Shown here one piece after another: positions 20,929 through 35,903 of a DNA stretch of 64,000 bases. The DNA is taken from NCBI GenBank assembly GCA_900315675.1, contig OMZY01000002.1:1-64000 (forward strand), given 5' to 3'. Under the pieces are notes generated by a model, which had not been told where the DNA came from, did not search any database, and worked only from the letters and a program-made list of their open reading frames with translations. This DNA is from an uncultured Eubacteriales bacterium. Lineage in GTDB: Bacteria > Bacillota > Clostridia > Christensenellales > Aristaeellaceae. Positions within the stretch are counted from its first letter, which is position 1, and every line of letters starts with the position of its first letter. The translations under genes and the position numbers were made by a program.

Positions 20929-22314
20929 TCATTGTGCGCACTTTGCCAAGCCGGTCCTTCTGATCCCATCCAGCTGTTCTGCGCTCAGGGTTCCGGCGCG
21001 ATACAGCTGAAGGTATTCATTTTCAATGGAGCTGTCAAAGATCAGCAGGTCGTCCGTGTTGATCGTTACCTGGATGCCATTTTCAACCAGGATCCGGATC
21101 GGATGATCCCTGTAATCCTTCACATATCCCAGCATCACATTACTGCTTGGGCATACATTCAGCCGGATGCGGTTATCCGCCAGGAACCTCATCGTTTCCT
21201 TTGACGCACAGGCACTGATCCCGTGATGGACTTCCGAAAGGCCCAGCACTTCCACCGCCCGCCTGATGTCGTCCGCCGTACCCGTCTCCCCGGCGTGCAT
21301 CTTTTTCACAAGGCCGTACCGCTCCGCTTTCCTGTAAAGCGGCAGGAAAACTTCCACCGGCTGATAGTTTTCAAACCCGCAGATATCAATGGACCTGAAC
21401 CAGCCGGGCTGAAGATATTCGTCAATTCTTTCCGCTTCGAAGGCAGCGTCACAGTTTGACGGAAAGGTCAGTTCAGGCTCAAAAACCGTATCGGGACAAT
21501 AGGCCCGGTGAAATCCTTCAATCAGTTCCCGAAGCGCTTCCGTCCCGCCCGCCTGGTCGATCTCCGCGGCACCGAAGTTCATGGATAATCTTGCGATATG
21601 GTTTCTCTTCGCTTCCGCAAACGCGCCTTCCCAGCGAAGGAGGGCGCCTTCCTGTCCGTCACAGAAGGGCTTTATGGAGGAGCGGAACCAGTCCTGCATT
21701 CCGGTAAGTCCGTCAAGCGGCACAGGGGGATCCGGCAGGCTTCTTTTCAGCCTTTCCGCCAGCCATTCCCGACGGCACCCTTTTGTCGAGTGATTATGCA
21801 GATCACTCTTGGGAACATCCAGCAGTTTTGCGGTGTTTCCTTCCCGGAGCGCTTCGCAGAACACATTCACAATATCCTTTTTCAGCAGGAGCCTGTTTCC
21901 GTCGTCCCTGAACACAGAATACCCGGATCGCTCATAAAAGCGCATAGCTGATGTATTTGATTTTTCCACATGCAGGAGAACCGCCCTGCTTTCGATCTGC
22001 TCTGCGTATTCTTCCGCCGTACGGATCAGCGACGAACCGATTCCCTTGTTCCGGTAAGCCGCTGCAACCGAAAAGTCATCCAGGTAAATATGATCCACCG
22101 GATCATGATGGACTTCCACAGACAGGAAAGCGATCACCTGACCGTCTTCCGCAACAAAGATCCGGTCCTGGTTTTCACTCCAGTATCTGTCCAGGTCTCC
22201 GTCCCCGTAGCCTTTCACGTCATCCGTTTGGTATATCGTCCGCAGCATTTCCAGAAACAGTCCGCGTATCTTTTCTTCATCCGCCGGCACTGCCGTTCTG
22301 ATCTTATATTTCAT
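20929..22314 (-). CDS. GNAT acetyltransferase-adenosine deaminase fusion
   Basis: This 461-residue protein has two domains. Residues 1-150 form a GNAT acetyltransferase with the acetyl-CoA loop AAYRNKGIGSSL (85-96) and the NTSAMRFYERSGY helix (about 120-132). Residues 165-461 form an adenosine deaminase: metal histidines H173 and H175 in DLHNHST, HAGE (340-343), HHG (363-365) and NTDD (419-422) are all in place. It should deaminate adenosine or a related base and acetylate an unknown amine. The start at 22314 (GAGGAC upstream) overlaps the end of the DUF3021 gene by 11 bases, so the protein belongs to the LytTR operon. Confidence 0.83.
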   Translation of the reverse strand: MKYKIRTAVPADEEKIRGLFLEMLRTIYQTDDVKGYGDGDLDRYWSENQDRIFVAEDGQVIAFLSVEVHHDPVDHIYLDDFSVAAAYRNKGIGSSLIRTAEEYAEQIESRAVLLHVEKSNTSAMRFYERSGYSVFRDDGNRLLLKKDIVNVFCEALREGNTAKLLDVPKSDLHNHSTKGCRREWLAERLKRSLPDPPVPLDGLTGMQDWFRSSIKPFCDGQEGALLRWEGAFAEAKRNHIARLSMNFGAAEIDQAGGTEALRELIEGFHRAYCPDTVFEPELTFPSNCDAAFEAERIDEYLQPGWFRSIDICGFENYQPVEVFLPLYRKAERYGLVKKMHAGETGTADDIRRAVEVLGLSEVHHGISACASKETMRFLADNRIRLNVCPSSNVMLGYVKDYRDHPIRILVENGIQVTINTDDLLIFDSSIENEYLQLYRAGTLSAEQLDGIRRTGLAKCAQ

Positions 22315-22777
22315 CTTTGTCCTCACTCTGTGCAATCTGTTTTTCCTGATACCGGGCCAGGTCCGCGTTGAGTTTCTCCGCTTCTTTCCTGTCGATCAGA
22401 TACAGAATGAGATGGGACAGGACAAAAACTGCCAGAATGCCCAATGCGAGCCCGGGAAGGACCCAGCTTTTTTCCGTAGGAATGGTGTCCGCCTTCAGGG
22501 CAATCAGGATGATCGCCCCTTCAATCAGCAGAAGGCTGATAGCTTTCCGGATAATCAGACTCCGGATGCTGAGCTCCCTGTCTGACCGGGTGATCACGGT
22601 TGCCGCGGTACCGATCAGCGCATAGAGCAGCGGGGAAAGAAAGGCTTCATAACTTAAAACGCGGTCCCGGTCAAGCAGGCGCCCCAGAATCATGATCACA
22701 ACGGTGATCAGCGTAACCAGCAGCGTATACAGGCGAAGCGCCCGGATAAGCTGCTCTTTCCATTTCTGTCCGGGCAT
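22304..22777 (-). CDS. DUF3021 membrane protein
   Basis: This 157-residue protein has four predicted membrane segments (about 14-32, 46-62, 77-93 and 105-127) and a charged C-terminal helix. DUF3021 proteins are regularly encoded beside LytTR regulators and are thought to control them at the membrane. Here the start codon overlaps the LytTR stop (TGATG) and the 3' end overlaps the fusion gene, giving a tightly coupled three-gene unit. Confidence 0.83.
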   Translation of the reverse strand: MPGQKWKEQLIRALRLYTLLVTLITVVIMILGRLLDRDRVLSYEAFLSPLLYALIGTAATVITRSDRELSIRSLIIRKAISLLLIEGAIILIALKADTIPTEKSWVLPGLALGILAVFVLSHLILYLIDRKEAEKLNADLARYQEKQIAQSEDKDEI

Positions 22778-24296: not shown

Positions 24297-24305
24297 TGAT
24301 ATAAT
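24297..24305 (+). promoter_or_regulatory. Extended -10 promoter of the three-module synthase
   Basis: TGATATAAT (24297-24305) is an extended -10 element. No good -35 is present at the usual distance, which is common with extended -10 promoters. The leader would be about 110 bases. Confidence 0.55.
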
Positions 24306-24420
24306 AGGATGATGCGGTTTTGGGCATCGGGAAGATCTTATATTTTATACGTTATCATTTTTCCTTCCCCCCGTACCGCGTCAATATATCGCTCTTGAAC
24401 CGGAATGGAAGGAGGCTTTC

Positions 24421-27400
24421 ATGAGCAATCTTGACGCGCAGTCTGTTTGCAGCAGACTGGAAGCTGACCAAACGCTGGCCACCCTGTTCGACATCCTCCG
24501 GGATTACGGAGAGGCGCCCGCCGCCTACTGGCTGGAAGGCGAACAGGAAAGAACCCGCTCCTATGCGGAAATGACCCTCCGGGCGGATGACTACGCCGCC
24601 TGCCTGAACTCCCTCGGTCTTGAAGAGGGCTGGATCGGCGTTGCCGTGGATACCTGCCACGACTGGCCGTCCCTGTACTGGGGCATCATGCGCTCCGGAC
24701 ATAACGCCCTGCTGCTGGACGCGTCCGCGCCCGACAGCGTGATCCAGGGCCTGCTGGATGAAGCGCACTGCCGCCAGGTCATTTCCCTGAAACCCAGGGC
24801 CCTGTCCGGCAACGTACACCAGATCGATTTCAAAACCATCCGGGAAGCTCCCCGCACCATTGGCTTTACCCCTGTATGGGGCGAATATACCGCCATGTGT
24901 ACCAGCGGCACCACCGGCACCAGCCGGATCTTTGCCTACAACAGCAAGGCAATCTGTGCCCAGGCGCTGAATGCCTATGAGCTTTTCAAGGTGAACCCCC
25001 GCATTATCCATCCTGTGAACACCGGGCGTAAAACCCTGGCCTTCCTGCCCTTCCACCATGTGCTGGGTTTCATGGGTAACATGGTCCTTTCCATGTTCAT
25101 GGGCACCGCCAACGTGTTCCTGCAGGATCGTACGCCCAATTCCATCCTGAACACCTGCCACCATTTCCCGCCGAACCTGCTGATCATGGTTCCCCTGGTG
25201 GGCAACAGCCTGGTCCGTTCCGTGGAAAAGGGACTGAAAAAAGAGAACAAGGCCAAGCAGAGCGCCTTTAAGACTTTGAAGGCCCTGTCCCTTGCCCGTC
25301 AGGCCATTTCTCCGGAAGCCGGCCTCCAGTGGGCCCAGAAGAAAGCCTTTGCCTCCCTTAACGAGCGGCTTATCGGCACCGAGGTGGACGTGGTCATCTT
25401 CGGCGGCAGCCATACGCCGACCGAAACCCTGCGCACCCTGAATGCGCTGGGCTACTACACCGTGACCGGTTACGGCATGACGGAAACCGCCATCAACGGT
25501 TTCGAAAGAGAGATGTCCCTCAAATACCGGCTGAACGGCTCCGTCGGTAAGCCCCTGCCCGCCGCAGAATACCGGATCGTTCCGGACAAGGAAGGCAGCA
25601 AAACCGGTGAACTTCAGGTCCGCGGCTCCGGCATTCATTCCGGCCGGGTCATTGACGGCCAGATTCTCCCGCCCGACACCGTCGATGACGGCTGGCTGCC
25701 CACCGGTGATATCGCCCAGCTGGACGCCACCGGCCGCCTGTACATCCGCGGCCGCCTGAAGGACGTCATCATCAACGAATCCGGCGAAAACGTCTATCCC
25801 GATGATATGGAAGACGCCTTCGCCGCCCTGAACGGCGTGGATCAGTTCTGCGTGGTGGGCTTACGCCGCAACCGCCGGGACAACAATGAAGACATCGTTC
25901 TGGTCATGAACGTCGGTGAAAACTATACTGATGACCAGTATCTGGACAAGCTGGCCGCGAAGGTGGCTGACGCCAACCGCAAGCTGCCCATCTACACCCA
26001 GCTGAACCGTGCCATCGTCACGCCCAACAAGCTGCCCCTGGTCAGCGGCATCAAGGTCAAGCGGATCGAGCTCAAGCGCATGTATGCGGAAGGTGAACTG
26101 ACCTACCGTGAGCTGGACCTCCACGGCCAGAACGTCGGCGCCGAAGTGGCTGCCGCGGCCCGCATCGAGACCAAGAGCGCGAAGCACGACGAAATTCTGA
26201 AGAAGGTCCGCACCATGTATGCGGAAGCGCTGGAGATCTCCGAAAGCGAGATCACCGACAATGCCAACTTCATTGAGGATCTCCAGGGCGACAGCCTCCA
26301 GGTGCTTTCCATTGCGCTGAAGGCCGAAGAGGAATGGGGCATTACCATTCCCGCTGAAGAATACGGTTCCTGCGCCACCGTGGCCGGTATGGCCCAGGTG
26401 GTGGAAACCCTGCTGGAAGGTCCCGCCGAAAGCGACAAGCCGAAGGAACGCGTCCCCGTCCGGCCCATCAGCCGTTTTGAGGACACGCCGGAATACAAGC
26501 ATTTCCTTGCGCGTCAGGAAGCCCTGGTCGGCAAGGGAGACAACCCCTACTTCGTCGCTCATGAATCTCCCCTCCTGGACACCGGCATCATCGACGGCAA
26601 GGAAGTCCTGGAGTTCGGTTCCTACAACTACGTAGGCATGTCCGGCCGGAAGGAAGTCAAGGACGCCGCCAAGGCCGCCATTGACAAGTACGGCACCAGC
26701 GCCAGCGGCAGCCGCCTGCTGGCCGGTGAAAAGCAGGTCCATAAGGACCTGGAAAAGGAAATCGCCGACTGGAAGCACACCGAGGACGCCATCGTCTGCG
26801 TCGGCGGTCACTCCACCAACGTGACCTTCGTCGGCAACTTCTGCGGCAAGAACGACCTGATCCTCTACGACGCGCTGGCCCACAACTCCATCGAGCAGGG
26901 CTGCAAGCTGTCCGACGCGACCTCCAGGCCTTTCCCCCACAGCGATACCGCTGCTCTGGAAACCATCCTGAAGAGCCAGCGTGCCTTCTACGAAAAGGTT
27001 CTGATTGTCATCGAAGGCGCCTACAGCATGGACGGCGATATCGCCCCCGTGCCGGAGTTTGTGCGGATCAAGAAGGAATACGGCTGCTTCCTCATGGTGG
27101 ATGAAGCCCACAGTGCCTGCGTCATCGGCAAGACCGGCGGCGGCGTGGATGAGTACTTCGGCCTGAACGGCGACGATATCGATATCAAGTACGGTACCCT
27201 GTCCAAAGGCCTGGGCACCTGCGGCGGCTACCTGGCCGGCAAGAAGTGCCTGATCGACTACCTGCGCTACAACATGCCCGGTTTCGTCTTCAGCGTCGGT
27301 ATTTCCCCCGCCCTGGCGGCCGGTTCCCTGGAAGCCATCCGCACCCTGCGGTCCCATCCGGAAATCATGGAGCACCTGCGCACTGCCATCAAGGCCTTCG

Positions 27401-27717
27401 CGGACAGCGCGCGGCGCCGTCACCTGGATATCTGCCTGGCCGGCGAAACCGCGGTTCTGCCGATCCTGGTCGGCAAGGATGAGGATGCCTGGTTCCTCTC
27501 CAACGAGCTGAAAAAGCGGGGCGTCAGCGTTCCGCCCGCCATGTATCCCGCCGTTCCCAAGGGCAAAGCCCGGTTGCGCTTCTGCGTGATCAGCGAGCAT
27601 AAGCCCGAGCAGATTGAAAAGGCGCTGGATATCCTGGAAGCCACTGCCCGCGAATACGGCATCGAGCTTCCCCGCCGCAACTATGACAAGGCGGAAGATC
27701 CGACTCCGGTTCTGTAA
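24421..27717 (+). CDS. AMP-ligase / acyl carrier protein / alpha-oxoamine synthase fusion
   Basis: This 1098-residue protein joins three enzymes. Residues 1-565 are an ANL adenylate-forming ligase: TSGTTGTS (161-168), YGMTET (351-356), TGD (428-430) and the hinge GRLKDVI (444-450). Residues about 588-668 are an acyl carrier protein with the attachment serine S625 in GDSL. Residues about 685-1085 are a PLP alpha-oxoamine synthase (BioF/KBL/SPT family): GSYNYVGM (733-740), DEAHS (894-898) and the PLP lysine K929 in TLSKGLG. The order suggests that a carboxylic acid is adenylated, loaded on the carrier and condensed with an amino acid, releasing CO2. Sphingoid-base-like or aminoketone products would fit. 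AAGGAGG precedes the ATG; it has its own promoter and terminator. Confidence 0.88.
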   Translation: MSNLDAQSVCSRLEADQTLATLFDILRDYGEAPAAYWLEGEQERTRSYAEMTLRADDYAACLNSLGLEEGWIGVAVDTCHDWPSLYWGIMRSGHNALLLDASAPDSVIQGLLDEAHCRQVISLKPRALSGNVHQIDFKTIREAPRTIGFTPVWGEYTAMCTSGTTGTSRIFAYNSKAICAQALNAYELFKVNPRIIHPVNTGRKTLAFLPFHHVLGFMGNMVLSMFMGTANVFLQDRTPNSILNTCHHFPPNLLIMVPLVGNSLVRSVEKGLKKENKAKQSAFKTLKALSLARQAISPEAGLQWAQKKAFASLNERLIGTEVDVVIFGGSHTPTETLRTLNALGYYTVTGYGMTETAINGFEREMSLKYRLNGSVGKPLPAAEYRIVPDKEGSKTGELQVRGSGIHSGRVIDGQILPPDTVDDGWLPTGDIAQLDATGRLYIRGRLKDVIINESGENVYPDDMEDAFAALNGVDQFCVVGLRRNRRDNNEDIVLVMNVGENYTDDQYLDKLAAKVADANRKLPIYTQLNRAIVTPNKLPLVSGIKVKRIELKRMYAEGELTYRELDLHGQNVGAEVAAAARIETKSAKHDEILKKVRTMYAEALEISESEITDNANFIEDLQGDSLQVLSIALKAEEEWGITIPAEEYGSCATVAGMAQVVETLLEGPAESDKPKERVPVRPISRFEDTPEYKHFLARQEALVGKGDNPYFVAHESPLLDTGIIDGKEVLEFGSYNYVGMSGRKEVKDAAKAAIDKYGTSASGSRLLAGEKQVHKDLEKEIADWKHTEDAIVCVGGHSTNVTFVGNFCGKNDLILYDALAHNSIEQGCKLSDATSRPFPHSDTAALETILKSQRAFYEKVLIVIEGAYSMDGDIAPVPEFVRIKKEYGCFLMVDEAHSACVIGKTGGGVDEYFGLNGDDIDIKYGTLSKGLGTCGGYLAGKKCLIDYLRYNMPGFVFSVGISPALAAGSLEAIRTLRSHPEIMEHLRTAIKAFADSARRRHLDICLAGETAVLPILVGKDEDAWFLSNELKKRGVSVPPAMYPAVPKGKARLRFCVISEHKPEQIEKALDILEATAREYGIELPRRNYDKAEDPTPVL

Positions 27718-27737
27718 TCCCAAGCATCAACAATCAA

Positions 27738-27767
27738 ACGAGGCTGCCAGATGGCAGCCTCGTTTTA
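27738..27767 (+). terminator. Terminator of the three-module synthase gene
   Basis: ACGAGGCTGCC pairs with GGCAGCCTCGT (11 bp, AGAT loop) followed by TTTTA, 20 bases after the stop codon. Confidence 0.88.
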
Positions 27768-29709: not shown

Positions 29710-31776
29710 TTATCCCACACCCTGACCAGGATTGTTATAGTTATAGTTGAGCGTTGTCCACTGCACCGGCAGCTGATCCGCTTCGGGAATGTACCAGGTA
29801 TATCCGTCGCTGTCCTTCCAGCTGAGAATTGTCAGTTTCAGCGAACCGATCGGAATATCAGCTTCGAAGTTGTTGAAGCGGAATGCGCCGTGGGCCGTCC
29901 TTTCATACGGTGCCAGAACGAAGGGATAATCTCCCTCGAAGAAGGTGCTTTCGCCGTCCGTGTTGCAGATCATGGGATTACCGTCCAGGTCGAAGCATTC
30001 AATCCTGAAATGTATATTCTCCAGGGTGAGATCCTGGCTCATGTTCCGCAGGGTAATCCGGATGCTCTGGCCATTGTCAGCCGCCAGGCCTTCCACCAGC
30101 ACCGCTTCGTTGAAGTTTCCGACCCTGATCCGGGTGGAGGCGGAATAACCGCCGTCCTCCGTGTAGGTATACACGGTTGTTGTGCCGAGGTTGATACCGC
30201 TGACCAGGCCCGTGCTCGTTCCGTTGGAACGGACCGAAGCAATGCTTTCATCCTCGGAAGCCCAGGTGACCCGCTGGTTGTTGGCGTTCTTCGGCTGCAC
30301 CACCGCACGTACGTTCGACGCGCCGCCCCGCTGCACATAGTACAGATCACGCTGCATTGCCACGCCGGTTACCGGCTGGATCACGGTCACCTTCACGCTC
30401 CCCTGCTTCTTGGAAGCGTCCTGTGCCGTAGCGGTAATGGTTGCCACGCCGCGGCCCACTGCTGTTACGACGCCGTTGGCGTCCACTGTGGCCACCTTCG
30501 GTGCCTGGCTCTTGAAGGTCAGTCCCTTGTTGGTCGCGTCATCCGGCTGTACGCTCCATTTCAGCTGGCCGCTTTCCCCGGTCTTCAGCGTCAGTTCCGA
30601 AGAATCGTTTACATTCACAATCTTCGTCACCAGCTGGCTGACGGTTACGGTTGCGGAAGCCGAAACGTCCGGATTGGAATTGCTGGTACAGGTCACGGTA
30701 CAGACGCCTGCCTTCACGCCGGTAATCTGACCGTTGCGCACCGTGGCAATGGAACTGTCGGAGGTGGACCAGGTCACCGTCTTGTCGTTGGCTTCCGCAG
30801 GCAGCACCTGGATCTTCGCCTGCGCCGTCCGGCCCACAACCACGGGGATATCCGCCTGCGTAAAGTTGATCCCGGTCACCGGCTGCGTCACGGTAATCTG
30901 CACCGTACCCGTTGCCTTTGATCCGTCCAGCGCCGTCGCGGTGATGGTTGCCGTTCCCTTCTTGATGCCCGTTACCATACCGCTTTCGTCTACCGTCGCC
31001 ACGTTCGGAGTCTTGGAGCTCCATGTCACTTCCGTCATGGAAGCGTTATCCGGGGAACAGATCGCGTCCAGTTCCATTCTGGATCCGGCCGCCACTTTCT
31101 TGTCTCCCGCGTCAATCGTGATCTTCTTCACCGGCTGGATAACCATCACCCGGAAGGTTTCCGTCACTTCCGGATTCTGCACGCTCTGCACCACCAGATC
31201 GCACTCACCCCGCTGTACCGCCTTCAGGTTGGTTCCGGTAATCCGGGCCACTCCCGCGTCGGACGTGGTATAGGTAACCTTCCGGCTCGAAGCGTCTTCC
31301 GGTGTGCAGGTCGCCGCCAGCGGAGCCACCGCGCCCGCCGGAATCACCAGCACCTGATGCTCTGTCGGTCCTTTCAGCAATCCGGCCACTGCCGGATGAT
31401 CCGGATCGTAAACCGAAAGCTTCACCGTGCTCAGCGTTACCTTCTGTACGGCGCGCAGCACGTGTACGGTCAGTTTGGTCTGGCCGACGCGTTTGCCGTT
31501 CCGCATCAGGGAGGCGGTGATTTCCGTGTCGCCCTTGCTCAGGGCCGTAATCGTTCCGTCCTCGGAAACGCTCGCCACGTTTGCCTTTCTGCTGGCAAAT
31601 ACGACCTCGCCGTCTCCGGCATAATTGCCTTCCCTTCGTACTGTCGCCTGCAGGGTTTCACCCTCAAAGAGCTGAACTGATTTTTCTGTAAAAAGAAAAA
31701 CATTGGCCGCCATCGCAGGGATCACAATACCTGCACACAGCAGTATCACCAACAAACAGGACAAAGCCTTTTTCAT
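29710..31776 (-). CDS. Secreted protein with tandem Ig-like (BIG2) domains
   Basis: This 688-residue protein has a signal peptide (residues 1-23, ending AMA) and about seven bacterial Ig-like (BIG2) repeats with the recurring pattern VTWxSxxxxVATVxxxGxVTxxxxGxxTITAT. A different beta-rich C-terminal domain follows (about 560-688), similar to DUF5780. No sortase motif, SLH domain or transmembrane tail is visible, so it is either released or held non-covalently. Such proteins usually act in adhesion or as surface scaffolds. The start at 31776 follows AGAGGGGA. Confidence 0.85.
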   Translation of the reverse strand: MKKALSCLLVILLCAGIVIPAMAANVFLFTEKSVQLFEGETLQATVRREGNYAGDGEVVFASRKANVASVSEDGTITALSKGDTEITASLMRNGKRVGQTKLTVHVLRAVQKVTLSTVKLSVYDPDHPAVAGLLKGPTEHQVLVIPAGAVAPLAATCTPEDASSRKVTYTTSDAGVARITGTNLKAVQRGECDLVVQSVQNPEVTETFRVMVIQPVKKITIDAGDKKVAAGSRMELDAICSPDNASMTEVTWSSKTPNVATVDESGMVTGIKKGTATITATALDGSKATGTVQITVTQPVTGINFTQADIPVVVGRTAQAKIQVLPAEANDKTVTWSTSDSSIATVRNGQITGVKAGVCTVTCTSNSNPDVSASATVTVSQLVTKIVNVNDSSELTLKTGESGQLKWSVQPDDATNKGLTFKSQAPKVATVDANGVVTAVGRGVATITATAQDASKKQGSVKVTVIQPVTGVAMQRDLYYVQRGGASNVRAVVQPKNANNQRVTWASEDESIASVRSNGTSTGLVSGINLGTTTVYTYTEDGGYSASTRIRVGNFNEAVLVEGLAADNGQSIRITLRNMSQDLTLENIHFRIECFDLDGNPMICNTDGESTFFEGDYPFVLAPYERTAHGAFRFNNFEADIPIGSLKLTILSWKDSDGYTWYIPEADQLPVQWTTLNYNYNNPGQGVG

Positions 31777-31837
31777 TCTGAATCCCCTCTTTCCAAAGCG
31801 TTTCCGGTTTTTTCTTTCCGTTTCCCGGGTGATAATA

Positions 31838-31868
31838 CAACGGAAGGCCTTTGCCGATCCTTCCGTTG
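31838..31868 (-). terminator. Stem-loop between ireB and the Ig-like protein gene
   Basis: CAACGGAAGG pairs with CCTTCCGTTG (10 bp). A second inverted repeat, ACGGTG/CACCGT, lies at 31886-31907. Together they probably separate ireB from the downstream gene. Confidence 0.55.
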
Positions 31869-31919
31869 TCGTTTTCCATTTGAAAACGGTGCCGTTATAC
31901 GACACCGTGCAGCAACGGA

Positions 31920-32370: not shown

Positions 32371-32393
32371 CTGCATTATGAATTGTGAATTGT
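32371..32393. repeat. AT-rich boundary tract
   Basis: GCATTATGAATTGTGAATTG-type repeats lie just before the glnS ribosome-binding site, one of the dispersed boundary tracts. Confidence 0.5.
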
Positions 32394-32410
32394 CAGAAGG
32401 AGTCTTCGCC

Positions 32411-34099
32411 ATGGAAGAGACAAATGCCCGCAGCAACTTTATCTGGGACGCGATCGAGAAGGATCTGGAGGATAAGCGTTATACGGAGATCCACACCCGT
32501 TTCCCTCCCGAACCCAACGGATATATGCATATTGGCCACTGCAAGGCCCTGATCATGGACTTCCTGACCGCGGAAAAATTCGGCGGCAAGTGCAACCTGC
32601 GCTTTGACGATACGAACCCTGCCAAGGAAGATACCGAATATGTCGAGGCCATCAAGCGGGATATCCACTGGCTGGGCTTCCACTGGACCGGCGGCGAATT
32701 CTACGCCTCCGATTACTATGATAAGTGCTATGAGATTGCTGAGGAGTGGATCCGCCGCGGCCTGGCCTATGTGGATGAACTCAGCAAGGATGAAATGCGG
32801 GAATACCGCGGCACCCTGACCGAGCCGGGCAAAAACAGTCCCTGGCGCGACCGTCCCGCAGAGGAAAGCCTGGATCTCTTCCGCCGCATGAAGGCAGGTG
32901 AATTCCCGGAAGGCAGCAAAACCCTGCGCATGAAGATCGACATGGCCTCCCCCAACATCGTTATGCGGGATCCTGCCATGTACCGCATCCTGTACAAGGA
33001 GCACTGGCGCACCGGTAACAAGTGGTGCATCTACCCCATGTACGATTTCTCCCATCCCATCGGCGACGCGCTGGAAGGCATCAGCCATTCCATGTGCTCC
33101 CTGGAATATGAGATCCACCGTCCCCTCTATGACTGGGTCGTGGAAAAGAGTGCGGACATGCTGCCCGCCCGTCCCCGCCAGATCGAGTTTTCCCGCCTGA
33201 ACATGACCGGCACGGTCATGTCCAAGCGTTACCTCCGCCAGCTGGTGGAGGGTGGCTATGTGGCCGGCTGGGATGATCCCCGGATGCCCACCCTTTCCGC
33301 CATGCGCCGCCGCGGCTATCCCGCCATGGCCATCCGCAATTTCGTGGATACCATCGGCATGAGCAAGGCGGACTCCACTGTGGACTACGCCGTACTGGAG
33401 CATTGCGTCCGCGACGTGCTGGGTGAAACCTCCCTCCGCGCCATGGCTGTGCTCAATCCCCTGAAGGTGGTCCTGACCAACTGGCCGGAAGGCGAAACCA
33501 AAACGGTTACCCTGGAAAATCACCCGGATCATCCGGAACTGGGCGAACGTACCCTCACCTTCGGCCGGGAGCTGTATATCGAGCAGGAGGACTTCATGGA
33601 AGTCCCGGTCAAAAAGTATCAGCGGATGTTCCCCGGCAACGAGGTCCGTCTCAAGGGCGCCTACATCGTCCGCTGCGACGACTGTGTGAAGGACGCGGAC
33701 GGCAATGTGGTCGAAGTGCACTGCACCGTGGACCTGGATTCCTTCTCCGGCAGTGCCGGCGCGGATCGGAAGATCAAGGGCAAGACCCTGCACTGGGTCC
33801 CCGTGAATGACTGTGTTCCCTTCGAAGCCCGGCTCTATGAGCCGCTTCTGAATGACGATATGGGCGAAGACGAGGAAGAGGAAGTCGACAAGAAAGACTT
33901 TATCTCCCGCCTCAATCCCGAAAGCCTGAAGGTTTGCCGCGGCTATGCTGAAAATGTCATTGCCGAAGCGGAAACCGGAACCTCTTTCCAGTTCCTGCGT
34001 ACCGGCTATTTCTGCAAGGATCCGGATTCCACCGACGCCCTGCCGGTTTATAACCGTACCGTAGGCCTGCGCGATTCTTTTGCAAAGCAGGCTAAATAA
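32411..34099 (+). CDS. glnS: Glutaminyl-tRNA synthetase
   Basis: This 562-residue class I synthetase charges tRNA-Gln directly with glutamine. It has PEPNGYMHIGH (HIGH signature at 40-43), the RFDDTNP and YDFSHPIGDALEGISHS active-site blocks, and VMSKRYL as the KMSKS loop; the C-terminal anticodon-binding beta-barrels follow. The ATG at 32411 is nine bases after AAGGAG, so the longer frame is not used. It is followed by gltX 31 bases downstream. Its presence means this organism need not rely on the amidotransferase route for Gln-tRNA. Confidence 0.95.
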   Translation: MEETNARSNFIWDAIEKDLEDKRYTEIHTRFPPEPNGYMHIGHCKALIMDFLTAEKFGGKCNLRFDDTNPAKEDTEYVEAIKRDIHWLGFHWTGGEFYASDYYDKCYEIAEEWIRRGLAYVDELSKDEMREYRGTLTEPGKNSPWRDRPAEESLDLFRRMKAGEFPEGSKTLRMKIDMASPNIVMRDPAMYRILYKEHWRTGNKWCIYPMYDFSHPIGDALEGISHSMCSLEYEIHRPLYDWVVEKSADMLPARPRQIEFSRLNMTGTVMSKRYLRQLVEGGYVAGWDDPRMPTLSAMRRRGYPAMAIRNFVDTIGMSKADSTVDYAVLEHCVRDVLGETSLRAMAVLNPLKVVLTNWPEGETKTVTLENHPDHPELGERTLTFGRELYIEQEDFMEVPVKKYQRMFPGNEVRLKGAYIVRCDDCVKDADGNVVEVHCTVDLDSFSGSAGADRKIKGKTLHWVPVNDCVPFEARLYEPLLNDDMGEDEEEEVDKKDFISRLNPESLKVCRGYAENVIAEAETGTSFQFLRTGYFCKDPDSTDALPVYNRTVGLRDSFAKQAK

Positions 34100-34130
34100 A
34101 CATTATGAATTTCGATAACCGGAGGTTATT

Positions 34131-35579
34131 ATGACTGTTCGCACACGTTTTGCCCCGTCTCCCACGGGCTTCATGCATCTCGGCGGCGTCCGTACCGCCC
34201 TTTATGAGTACCTCATTGCCAAACAGAACAATGGCACCTTTATCCTGCGCATCGAGGATACCGACCAGGAGCGTTTTGTTCCCGGAGCCACGGAAGTGAT
34301 CTATGATACCCTTCGTGCCTGCGGGCTGAACTGGGATGAAGGTCCTGATATCGGCGGCGACTACGGCCCCTATATCCAGTCCGAGCGGAAAGCCACCTAC
34401 CTGCCCTATGCAAAACAGCTGGTGGAATCCGGACATGCCTATTACTGCTTCTGCTCCAAGGAAGAGATTGATGAACGCCGCAAAGCTGTCGAAGCAGCCG
34501 GCGGCACCTGGAAATACGACAAGCACTGCATGCATCTTTCCAAAGAGGAAGTACAGCAGAAGCTGGATGCCGGCATCCCGTGGACCATCCGCATGAACGC
34601 CCCCACCGAAGGCGAAACCAGCTACCATGATATGGTCTTCGGCGATATGACTTTCCAGAATTCAGAAGCCATGGATGACATGGTCCTCATCAAGCAGGAC
34701 GGCATGCCCACCTACAACTTTGCCAATGTCATCGACGACCATCTGATGAACATCACCCACGTGGTCCGCGGCATGGAATACCTGTCTTCCACCCCGCGCT
34801 ACAACTATCTGTACAACGCCTTCGGCTGGGACATTCCGACCTATGTTCATCTGCCCACCGTGATGCGCGACGCCACCCATAAGCTTTCCAAGCGGGACGG
34901 CGATGCCTATTATTCTGATTATATTGAAAAGGGTTTCCTCACCGAAGCGCTGATCAATTACCTCGCGCTGGTCGGCTGGAATCCCGGCACGGACCAGGAG
35001 TTCTTCACCCTGCCGGAGCTGGTCAAGGCCTTCGATATCAAGCGCATCAACAACTCTCCCGGCATCTTCGACGTCAACAAGCTGGAGTGGATGAACACCC
35101 AGTATGTGGCGAAGATGGATCCGGAGAAGTACCTCGAAATGGCAACCCCGTGGTTTGACAAAGTCCTCGCCGGAAAGAACATCGATTACCGCCGCCTGGC
35201 CGAGCTCATGCAGAGCCGCACGGATATCTTCTCCCGCATTCCGGAGAAGATCGCCTTCCTGGCGGAGATGCCGGATTACGACACCGCCATCTTCTTCAAC
35301 AAGAAGCAGAAGAGCGATGAATCCGTTGCGAAGGAAGTTCTGTCCCTGCTGATCCCGGTACTGGAGGGCATCAGTGACTGGACCGAAACAAACATCCACG
35401 ATGTGGTGATGGAAAAGATCCAGGCCTGGGAGCGCAAAACCGGCTCCGTCCTCTGGCCCATGCGCATCTCCATTTCCGGTCAGGAATCCACTCCCGGCGG
35501 TGCCTTCGAGATCGCATACCTGCTCGGCAAAGACGAAACCATCCGCCGCATGAAAGCCAGCCTGGAAAAACTCGGCTGA
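34131..35579 (+). CDS. gltX: Glutamyl-tRNA synthetase
   Basis: This 482-residue class I synthetase charges tRNA-Glu. FAPSPTGFMHLGG is the HIGH-like signature at the N-terminus, LRIEDTDQERF binds the amino acid, and HKLSKRDGD is the KMSKS loop. Length is typical of bacterial GluRS. GGAGG lies six bases before the ATG. Together with glnS it forms an operon placed immediately upstream of the genes for its own and its partner's tRNA substrates. Confidence 0.95.
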   Translation: MTVRTRFAPSPTGFMHLGGVRTALYEYLIAKQNNGTFILRIEDTDQERFVPGATEVIYDTLRACGLNWDEGPDIGGDYGPYIQSERKATYLPYAKQLVESGHAYYCFCSKEEIDERRKAVEAAGGTWKYDKHCMHLSKEEVQQKLDAGIPWTIRMNAPTEGETSYHDMVFGDMTFQNSEAMDDMVLIKQDGMPTYNFANVIDDHLMNITHVVRGMEYLSSTPRYNYLYNAFGWDIPTYVHLPTVMRDATHKLSKRDGDAYYSDYIEKGFLTEALINYLALVGWNPGTDQEFFTLPELVKAFDIKRINNSPGIFDVNKLEWMNTQYVAKMDPEKYLEMATPWFDKVLAGKNIDYRRLAELMQSRTDIFSRIPEKIAFLAEMPDYDTAIFFNKKQKSDESVAKEVLSLLIPVLEGISDWTETNIHDVVMEKIQAWERKTGSVLWPMRISISGQESTPGGAFEIAYLLGKDETIRRMKASLEKLG

Positions 35580-35746: not shown

Positions 35747-35817
35747 TGGGGAATGGTGTAACGGCAGCACCTACGACTCTGACTCGTATTGTCTAGGTTC
35801 GAATCCTAGTTCCCCAG
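35747..35817 (+). tRNA. tRNA-Gln (anticodon CTG)
   Basis: The cloverleaf folds cleanly: acceptor TGGGGAA / TTCCCCA, D-arm with GTAACGG loop, anticodon stem TACGA / TCGTA with loop CTCTGAC (anticodon CTG, reading CAG), and T-arm TAG GTTCGAATC CTA. Discriminator G. The CCA end is not encoded. A CTG isoacceptor reads only CAG, so a TTG one must be encoded elsewhere. Confidence 0.93.
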
Positions 35818-35830
35818 CTTTTCTTTTTCT

Positions 35831-35903
35831 GGCTCCGTTGTCTAGAGGCCTAGGACGCGGCCCTCTCAAGGCTGAAACACGGGTTCGAATCCCGTCGGAG
35901 CTG
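35831..35903 (+). tRNA. tRNA-Glu (anticodon CTC)
   Basis: Acceptor GGCTCCG pairs with CGGAGCT (one wobble at the end). The anticodon stem is CGGCC / GGCTG with loop CTCTCAA, giving anticodon CTC (reads GAG). The T-arm is CGGG TTCGAAT CCCG. It follows tRNA-Gln by 13 bases and shares its promoter. The accessory region begins just beyond it. Confidence 0.92.

Follow-up and report, generated by a model that had tools for sequence, protein, structure and literature searches.

The gene at positions 24421-27717 (+ strand) of an uncultured Eubacteriales bacterium encodes, in a single chain, an adenosine monophosphate (AMP) ligase, an acyl carrier protein (ACP) and an alpha-oxoamine synthase (AOS). 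It lies in a 64,000-nucleotide stretch of contig OMZY01000002.1 (assembly GCA_900315675.1), hereafter the window. Judged from its sequence, the fused protein is probably a self-loading sphingoid-base synthase, independent of coenzyme A (CoA), whose product is reduced in trans by a KdsR-like enzyme. The N-terminal AMP ligase would convert a free fatty acid to acyl-AMP, and the acyl group would then pass from AMP to the ACP of the same chain, onto a phosphopantetheine arm predicted at S625. The C-terminal AOS would bind an amino acid, of which L-serine is the most likely, and its decarboxylative condensation with the ACP-bound acyl chain would give a 2-amino-3-keto lipid of the 3-ketosphinganine type. 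This keto lipid would be turned into a 2-amino-3-hydroxy base by a KdsR-like short-chain reductase, the gene of which lies on another contig. In this scheme we infer enzymatic activity, phosphopantetheinylation, CoA-independence, a dimeric state, serine as substrate, the chain length and the fate of the base.

The open reading frame (ORF) is intact in the ORF list of the window, starts with ATG and codes for 1098 residues. Pfam analysis reports four domains, all above their gathering cut-offs: AMP-binding (PF00501, 6.5e-37; residues 28-408, positions 24502-25644), AMP-binding_C_3 (PF23562, 1.1e-5; residues 448-555, 25762-26085), PP-binding, the carrier (PF00550, 4.1e-10; residues 595-660, 26203-26400), and Aminotran_1_2 (PF00155, 3.1e-44; residues 728-1071, 26602-27633), the last being assigned to the AOS family also by its place in the tree. 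All are on the + strand, as are the codons given below. When the fused protein of the window is aligned with those of 26 further loci (excluding the partial L041), the key residues of every module are identical in all 27. These are TSGTT 161-165, GMTE 352-355, G429-D430, R445/K447/D448, K545 and R548 in the ligase; D624-S625-L626 in the carrier, with the predicted phosphopantetheine serine S625 (codon 26293-26295); and H821, S869, DEAH 894-897, T926, S928, K929 and R1053 in the AOS, K929 being the pyridoxal phosphate (PLP) lysine of the GTLSKGLG motif (codon 27205-27207). The sole variable key site is position six of the A3 motif, G in 19 proteins and S, D or A in eight. The candidate A10 lysine, K545 in LPLVSGIKVKR (codon 26053-26055), belongs to a conserved S-G-I-K motif, one position later than in the SGK form of A10. 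The initial annotation, made from the same DNA, had read three modules in one chain with intact motifs, and both ORF and alignment bear this out; it had placed S625 and K929 exactly where they are found, and the layout it proposed for PLP-dependent condensation of a carrier-bound acyl chain is present as predicted from domains and motifs. The fused gene is under purifying selection, with nonsynonymous to synonymous rate ratios (dN/dS) of 0.052, 0.049, 0.135 and 0.154 against four relatives, and of 0.03-0.05 for the AOS part alone. An AlphaFold2 model of the full-length protein (24 close homologues; predicted template modelling score 0.47, mean predicted local distance difference test score 65.8, much of the AOS core below 50) is too poor for interpretation.

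With its AMP-binding, PP-binding and Aminotran_1_2 domains in this order in a single chain, the protein belongs to the A-CP-AOS type as delimited in PMC3870968. This architecture is already known, since Table 2 of that 2013 paper lists A-CP-PLP2 proteins of the AOS class, with product and cluster type given there as unknown. A1ZVW4 of Microscilla marina and A3ZWL3 of Blastopirellula marina, from other organisms, share the three domain families, their order and an AOS-type PLP domain, a likeness that extends to the tabulated domain order. Separate ligase, ACP and serine palmitoyltransferase (SPT) triads are known as well: according to PMC9386255, AasR of Rhodobacteria loads AcpR, and acyl-AcpR is the preferred donor of SPT. 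The initial annotation had stated that sphingolipid synthesis normally uses acyl-CoA, which in view of these two papers is incomplete. The AasR, AcpR and SPT of C. crescentus and E. coli BL21 provide the same three activities from three separate genes, those of BL21 lying in an operon that encodes a fatty acyl-AMP ligase, an epimerase-type protein, an ACP and SPT. The fused ligase resembles BL21 AasR at the superfamily level only (27% identity over 166 residues, E 5e-10), and the fused AOS is 34% identical over 345 residues to BL21 SPT, which the tree places among the SPTs. The reductase neighbouring BL21 SPT, named CerR, is of the epimerase type and not KdsR-like, and the KdsR-like reductase of the present genome gave no match to it. 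The fused protein would be expected to work like the AasR-AcpR-SPT system while belonging to a separate lineage. NCBIfam analysis of the ligase reports long-chain acyl-CoA ligase as the best model (147 bits, cut-off 476), and 63 bits on a fatty acyl-AMP ligase model (cut-off 600), scores too low to assign it to a CoA-forming or to a strictly ACP-dependent (FAAL) type. The genome encodes one PF01648 phosphopantetheinyl transferase, in an AcpS-sized frame of 123 residues.

Among the NCBIfam models the AOS scores highest with BioF (340 bits). This would suit a biotin-pathway enzyme joining pimelate activation to 8-amino-7-oxononanoate synthesis in one chain, a reading that is hardly credible: the BioF cut-off of 426 bits is missed, and neither bioB (77 bits, cut-off 225) nor bioA (213 bits, cut-off 405) exceeds its threshold in a genome 96% complete, on which grounds biotin synthesis was rejected. 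Moreover, the AOS groups with AOS linked to polyketide synthases (PKS), and E. coli BioF appeared in the first of three trees only, on a very long branch. The last tree, midpoint-rooted, comprises 39 rows, with neither E. coli BioF nor L139, a long branch, among them. The fused and near AOS rows form one group (support 100/99), which joins the AOS of Pseudomonas, Paraburkholderia, Sinorhizobium, Planktothrix and Streptomyces in a group of 25 rows (100/100); PfSgaB and RkpG are not among the rows. Among these relatives, a type I PKS gene lies close by in the plasmid records of Pseudomonas and Paraburkholderia, the Planktothrix AOS is part of a PKS, and a 1607-residue Streptomyces protein contains a carrier and an AOS. 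The Sinorhizobium AOS follows a large gene annotated only as a protein of the short-chain dehydrogenase/reductase (SDR) family, in a locus reminiscent of rkpA/rkpG. The motifs SYNY, GHxTN and PGFxxSVG occur in the fused protein and most rows, but Sinorhizobium, Streptomyces, Paraburkholderia, L137 and L140 each deviate from them in part.

The nearest plasmid-record relatives of the AOS being mostly PKS-linked, the fused protein could belong to a polyketide-like secondary-metabolite route with its other enzymes elsewhere. We hold this to be very improbable: no PKS domain was found in a scan limited to 20 ORFs of the window, with no search of the whole genome for PKS, and the AOS has a native base composition and is kept in 35 of 37 genomes of the same genus, the present one included. 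The nearest characterised arrangement is PfSgaA/SgaB/SgaC of Pseudomonas fluorescens MYb115, in which, as given in PMC12134224, a PKS-linked AOS acts as SPT and a KDSR homologue belongs to the cluster. There the acyl chain is made by the PKS and the AOS is separate, whereas here a fatty acid ligase and an ACP are fused to the AOS. In the plasmid locus L120, a PKS gene and an AOS gene are followed, five genes on, by an SDR gene, with the tag spacing of sgaA, sgaB and sgaC as far as reported for MYb115. By gene order, L120 may be of the same cluster type; its SDR is 28% identical to the KdsR-like reductase of the present genome.

That reductase is encoded at positions 141177-141998 of contig C19 (genome G000), and is the best counterpart of an SDR whose gene, in a sister clade of fused genes (53-55% identity), immediately precedes the fused gene, in the same orientation, in seven of eight loci, at a spacing of -4 to +30 nucleotides in the ORF list. 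The C19 reductase is 55% identical to the sister SDR over 266 residues (E 1.1e-92), while the next four SDRs of the genome reach 28-32%, and this gap suggests that the two are orthologous. NCBIfam analysis gives KdsR (NF049977), a model that we take to be built around Bacteroides BT_0972, as the best match of both the sister SDR and the C19 reductase (218 and 230 bits), ahead of the next family by 39 and 29 bits, respectively. The GxxxGxG and YxxxK motifs of active SDRs are present in the C19 reductase and in the sister SDR compared with it, and are shared with Bacteroides KdsR (BT_0972; PMC9278070). In the genus the reductase occurs in 36 of the 37 genomes, split in two fragments in G024, and in 34 of the 35 that have an AOS, the exception being G027 (57% complete). 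Directly downstream of the C19 reductase, on the same strand, stand two tandem ORFs (L090:14002-16146), the first phosphodiester glycosidase-like (NAGPA) by Pfam and the second alike by eye.

The initial annotation had noted that no reductase is nearby and had proposed a different aminoketone lipid as product. The first statement holds for adjacency but not for the genome, and the second loses its ground with the C19 gene and its counterpart in the sister loci. An unreduced aminoketone lipid or signal, comparable with CqsA-type autoinducers, would agree with the absence of such a reductase both next to the gene and among the 20 Pfam-scanned window ORFs. It is nonetheless improbable, as the genome does hold a KdsR-like reductase with a counterpart beside the sister fused genes, and in a PDB comparison of the AOS, CqsA chains score 85 bits against 214 bits for SPT chains. 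The matching reductase suggests a sphingolipid-type base as the product.

A nearly full-length fused gene is present in 28 of the 37 genomes of the genus, and 22 full-length fused genes occur in 297 genomes of the order, a count that leaves aside two partial fused genes and ten ligase-only or ligase-ACP-only matches. An AOS alone (62-64% identity) is found in seven genomes of the genus (G013, G017, G018, G025, G026, G031 and G032), all of which retain the reductase; two genomes, 71% and 58% complete, have neither fusion nor AOS. In none of these nine was a ligase-ACP half found at E <= 1e-15, in a search run without a positive control. The co-occurrence in 34 of 35 genomes and the AOS-alone genomes together show AOS and reductase to be the constant pair and the ligase-ACP front to be the part that may be absent. 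The present genome has a single AOS (one match at E <= 1e-50; an SPT-like query likewise gave one at E <= 1e-15). The named relatives come from Clostridia assemblies, many of goat, sheep, buffalo or yak gut. In a sample of 398 genomes of the phylum, for each of which no more than two candidates were scored, three genomes beyond the present one matched at E <= 1e-100, none along the full length: two carry ACP-AOS didomains and one a ligase-ACP. No homologue covering 80% of the fused protein was seen in 1745 matching plasmid records or in 46 phage records. Seventeen loci (L068-L084) were rejected as fused relatives, having matched the ACP or the ligase only, with the AOS unmatched. The two didomain genes (L135:7491-9722 in G365 and L136:6959-9207 in G669) belong to another family of the phylum and are preceded, at 84 and 74 nucleotides and on the same strand, by a CDP-alcohol phosphatidyltransferase gene (PF01066), which hints at a lipid head-group step.

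In the order sample, where SDR figures are lower bounds and some SDR matches near 30% identity are probably non-orthologous, an SDR similar to the KdsR-like one lies within 300 nucleotides of at least 50 of 104 AOS genes. It does so for at least 44 of 82 stand-alone AOS matches (at least 42 on the same strand), a few of which may be other AOS types, and for at least six of the 22 fused genes, each time in the same orientation; at least 21 of the 22 fused-gene genomes have such an SDR somewhere. With one or two such SDRs per genome of 1-4 Mb, neighbours by chance should be very rare. Against the SPT-CFB model, with its cut-off of 640, the three stand-alone AOS tested from other families of the order reach 506-561 bits. 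Two AOS lineages, each linked to a KdsR-like reductase, argue for the same two-step chemistry in both.

Several observations weigh against a sphingoid-base synthase with a partner reductase. The AOS reaches the cut-off of no equivalog model compared, staying below those of the SPT models NF047600, NF047599 and NF047603 (292 of 640, 271 of 500 and 228 of 670 bits, the first pair being its figure for SPT-CFB), and falls outside the SPT group, which holds 12 SPT or SPT-like rows including E. coli BL21 SPT; a placement among canonical SPTs was rejected on these two grounds. Relative to S. multivorum SPT the alignment further reports the changes Asn52 to Tyr, Ala79 to Ser, Phe114 to His, Met271 to Val and Ala274 to Val, and Asn52 holds the serine hydroxyl through a water molecule, according to PMC10196870. 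On the reductase side, the C19 enzyme remains below the NF049977 cut-off (230 of 400 bits), the sister SDR of L062 matches a general SDR model slightly better than it matches KdsR (197 against 192 bits) and has no exact GxxxGxG, and L064 is the one sister locus with no adjacent SDR. The reductase is adjacent neither in the window nor, among the matches listed, in 16 of the 22 order fused genes, and for one fused-gene genome (G141) the matches listed include no SDR at E <= 1e-25. Finally, two of these 22 genes (in G198 and G263) encode an AOS that lacks the PLP lysine.

The position outside the SPT group, the scores below the SPT cut-offs and the residues at positions 52 and 79 would also fit the same chemistry with alanine or glycine, leading to 1-deoxy bases or to simple aminoketones or amino alcohols. 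This substrate choice is unlikely, if deserving of real weight. The SPT of S. wittichii likewise has Tyr at the Asn52 position, which makes this residue compatible with serine. PfSgaB uses L-serine virtually exclusively over alanine and glycine, as stated in PMC12134224, and the fused AOS shares 20 of 27 active-site positions compared with the Pseudomonas PKS-linked AOS, itself not known to be serine-specific. The residues that contact PLP in S. multivorum SPT (His138, Asp210, His213, Thr241, Ser243, Lys244 and an Arg) are kept in the alignment, as is Ser185, following the site roles in PMC10196870. The sphingoid-base reading with serine as substrate is retained as the probable one.

In the two fused proteins lacking the PLP lysine (L139:6419-9613 in G198; L149 and L150 in G263 and G198), GTLSKGLG reads GSLCGAFG, and in L139 the positions of His821 and Ser869 are altered as well. 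No second AOS was found in either genome at E <= 1e-15, and their lysine-less AOS may be non-catalytic or repurposed.

Both genes flanking the fused gene are on the opposite strand, one for an Rce1-like protease upstream and mnmG downstream, so within the window the gene does stand alone, as the initial annotation had it. Its claim of an own promoter and terminator is plausible at most, because the consensus promoter scan lists none on the + strand ahead of the gene, and the 13-pair stem-loop at 27736-27765, in the gap where the fused gene and mnmG converge, is listed as terminator-like on the - strand only, the side of mnmG. An extended -10-like element (TGaTATAAT, 24297-24305, +), absent from the scan list, and a Shine-Dalgarno sequence (AGGAGG, 24410-24415, +) were read by eye; that the stem-loop serves the fused gene as well as mnmG is a guess. 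The GC content of the fused gene (60.5%; 79% at third codon positions, GC3) is close to that of mnmG (61.7% and 77%), and with this native composition a recent foreign origin was rejected. The overall GC content of the window, 54.4%, is compatible with the 53.0 and 53.5% tabulated for Aristaeella, rumen isolates of which may belong to the genus. In a Pfam scan of 20 ORFs of the window, three of them without any match, none matches a lipid, PKS or sphingolipid gene. Elsewhere in the window, a single ORF (20929-22335, -) joins a GNAT acetyltransferase domain to an adenosine deaminase domain, a 731-residue protein with five Big_2 immunoglobulin-like stretches adjoins mnmG (29710-31905, -), and two tRNA genes (35747-35903, +) follow two class I tRNA synthetase genes of E and Q type (32378-35579).

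The Clostridial lineage, the AOS branch and the KdsR-like pairing of this A-CP-AOS protein look new. Among the papers listed, titles and opening lines of abstracts showed none on how Clostridia, Firmicutes or Christensenella would make sphingolipids, in a search whose scope did not extend to preprints and most subscription papers. PMC12134224 calls the KDSR step unusual for a bacterial pathway, Bacteroides and Prevotella excepted. Tentatively, and with slightly less than an even chance of being right as a whole, members of this Clostridial order, many from ruminant guts, may make sphingoid bases directly from free fatty acids and independently of CoA, through a PKS-type AOS of a branch apart from SPT that is fused to ligase and ACP, with a KdsR-like partner, and two routes may coexist there, one with a stand-alone SPT-like AOS and a KdsR-like SDR and the other with the fused enzyme. 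If true, sphingoid bases of the animal gut would not be confined to Bacteroidetes, and a single protein would lead from free fatty acid and serine to a sphingoid precursor, which would make it usable as a biocatalyst.

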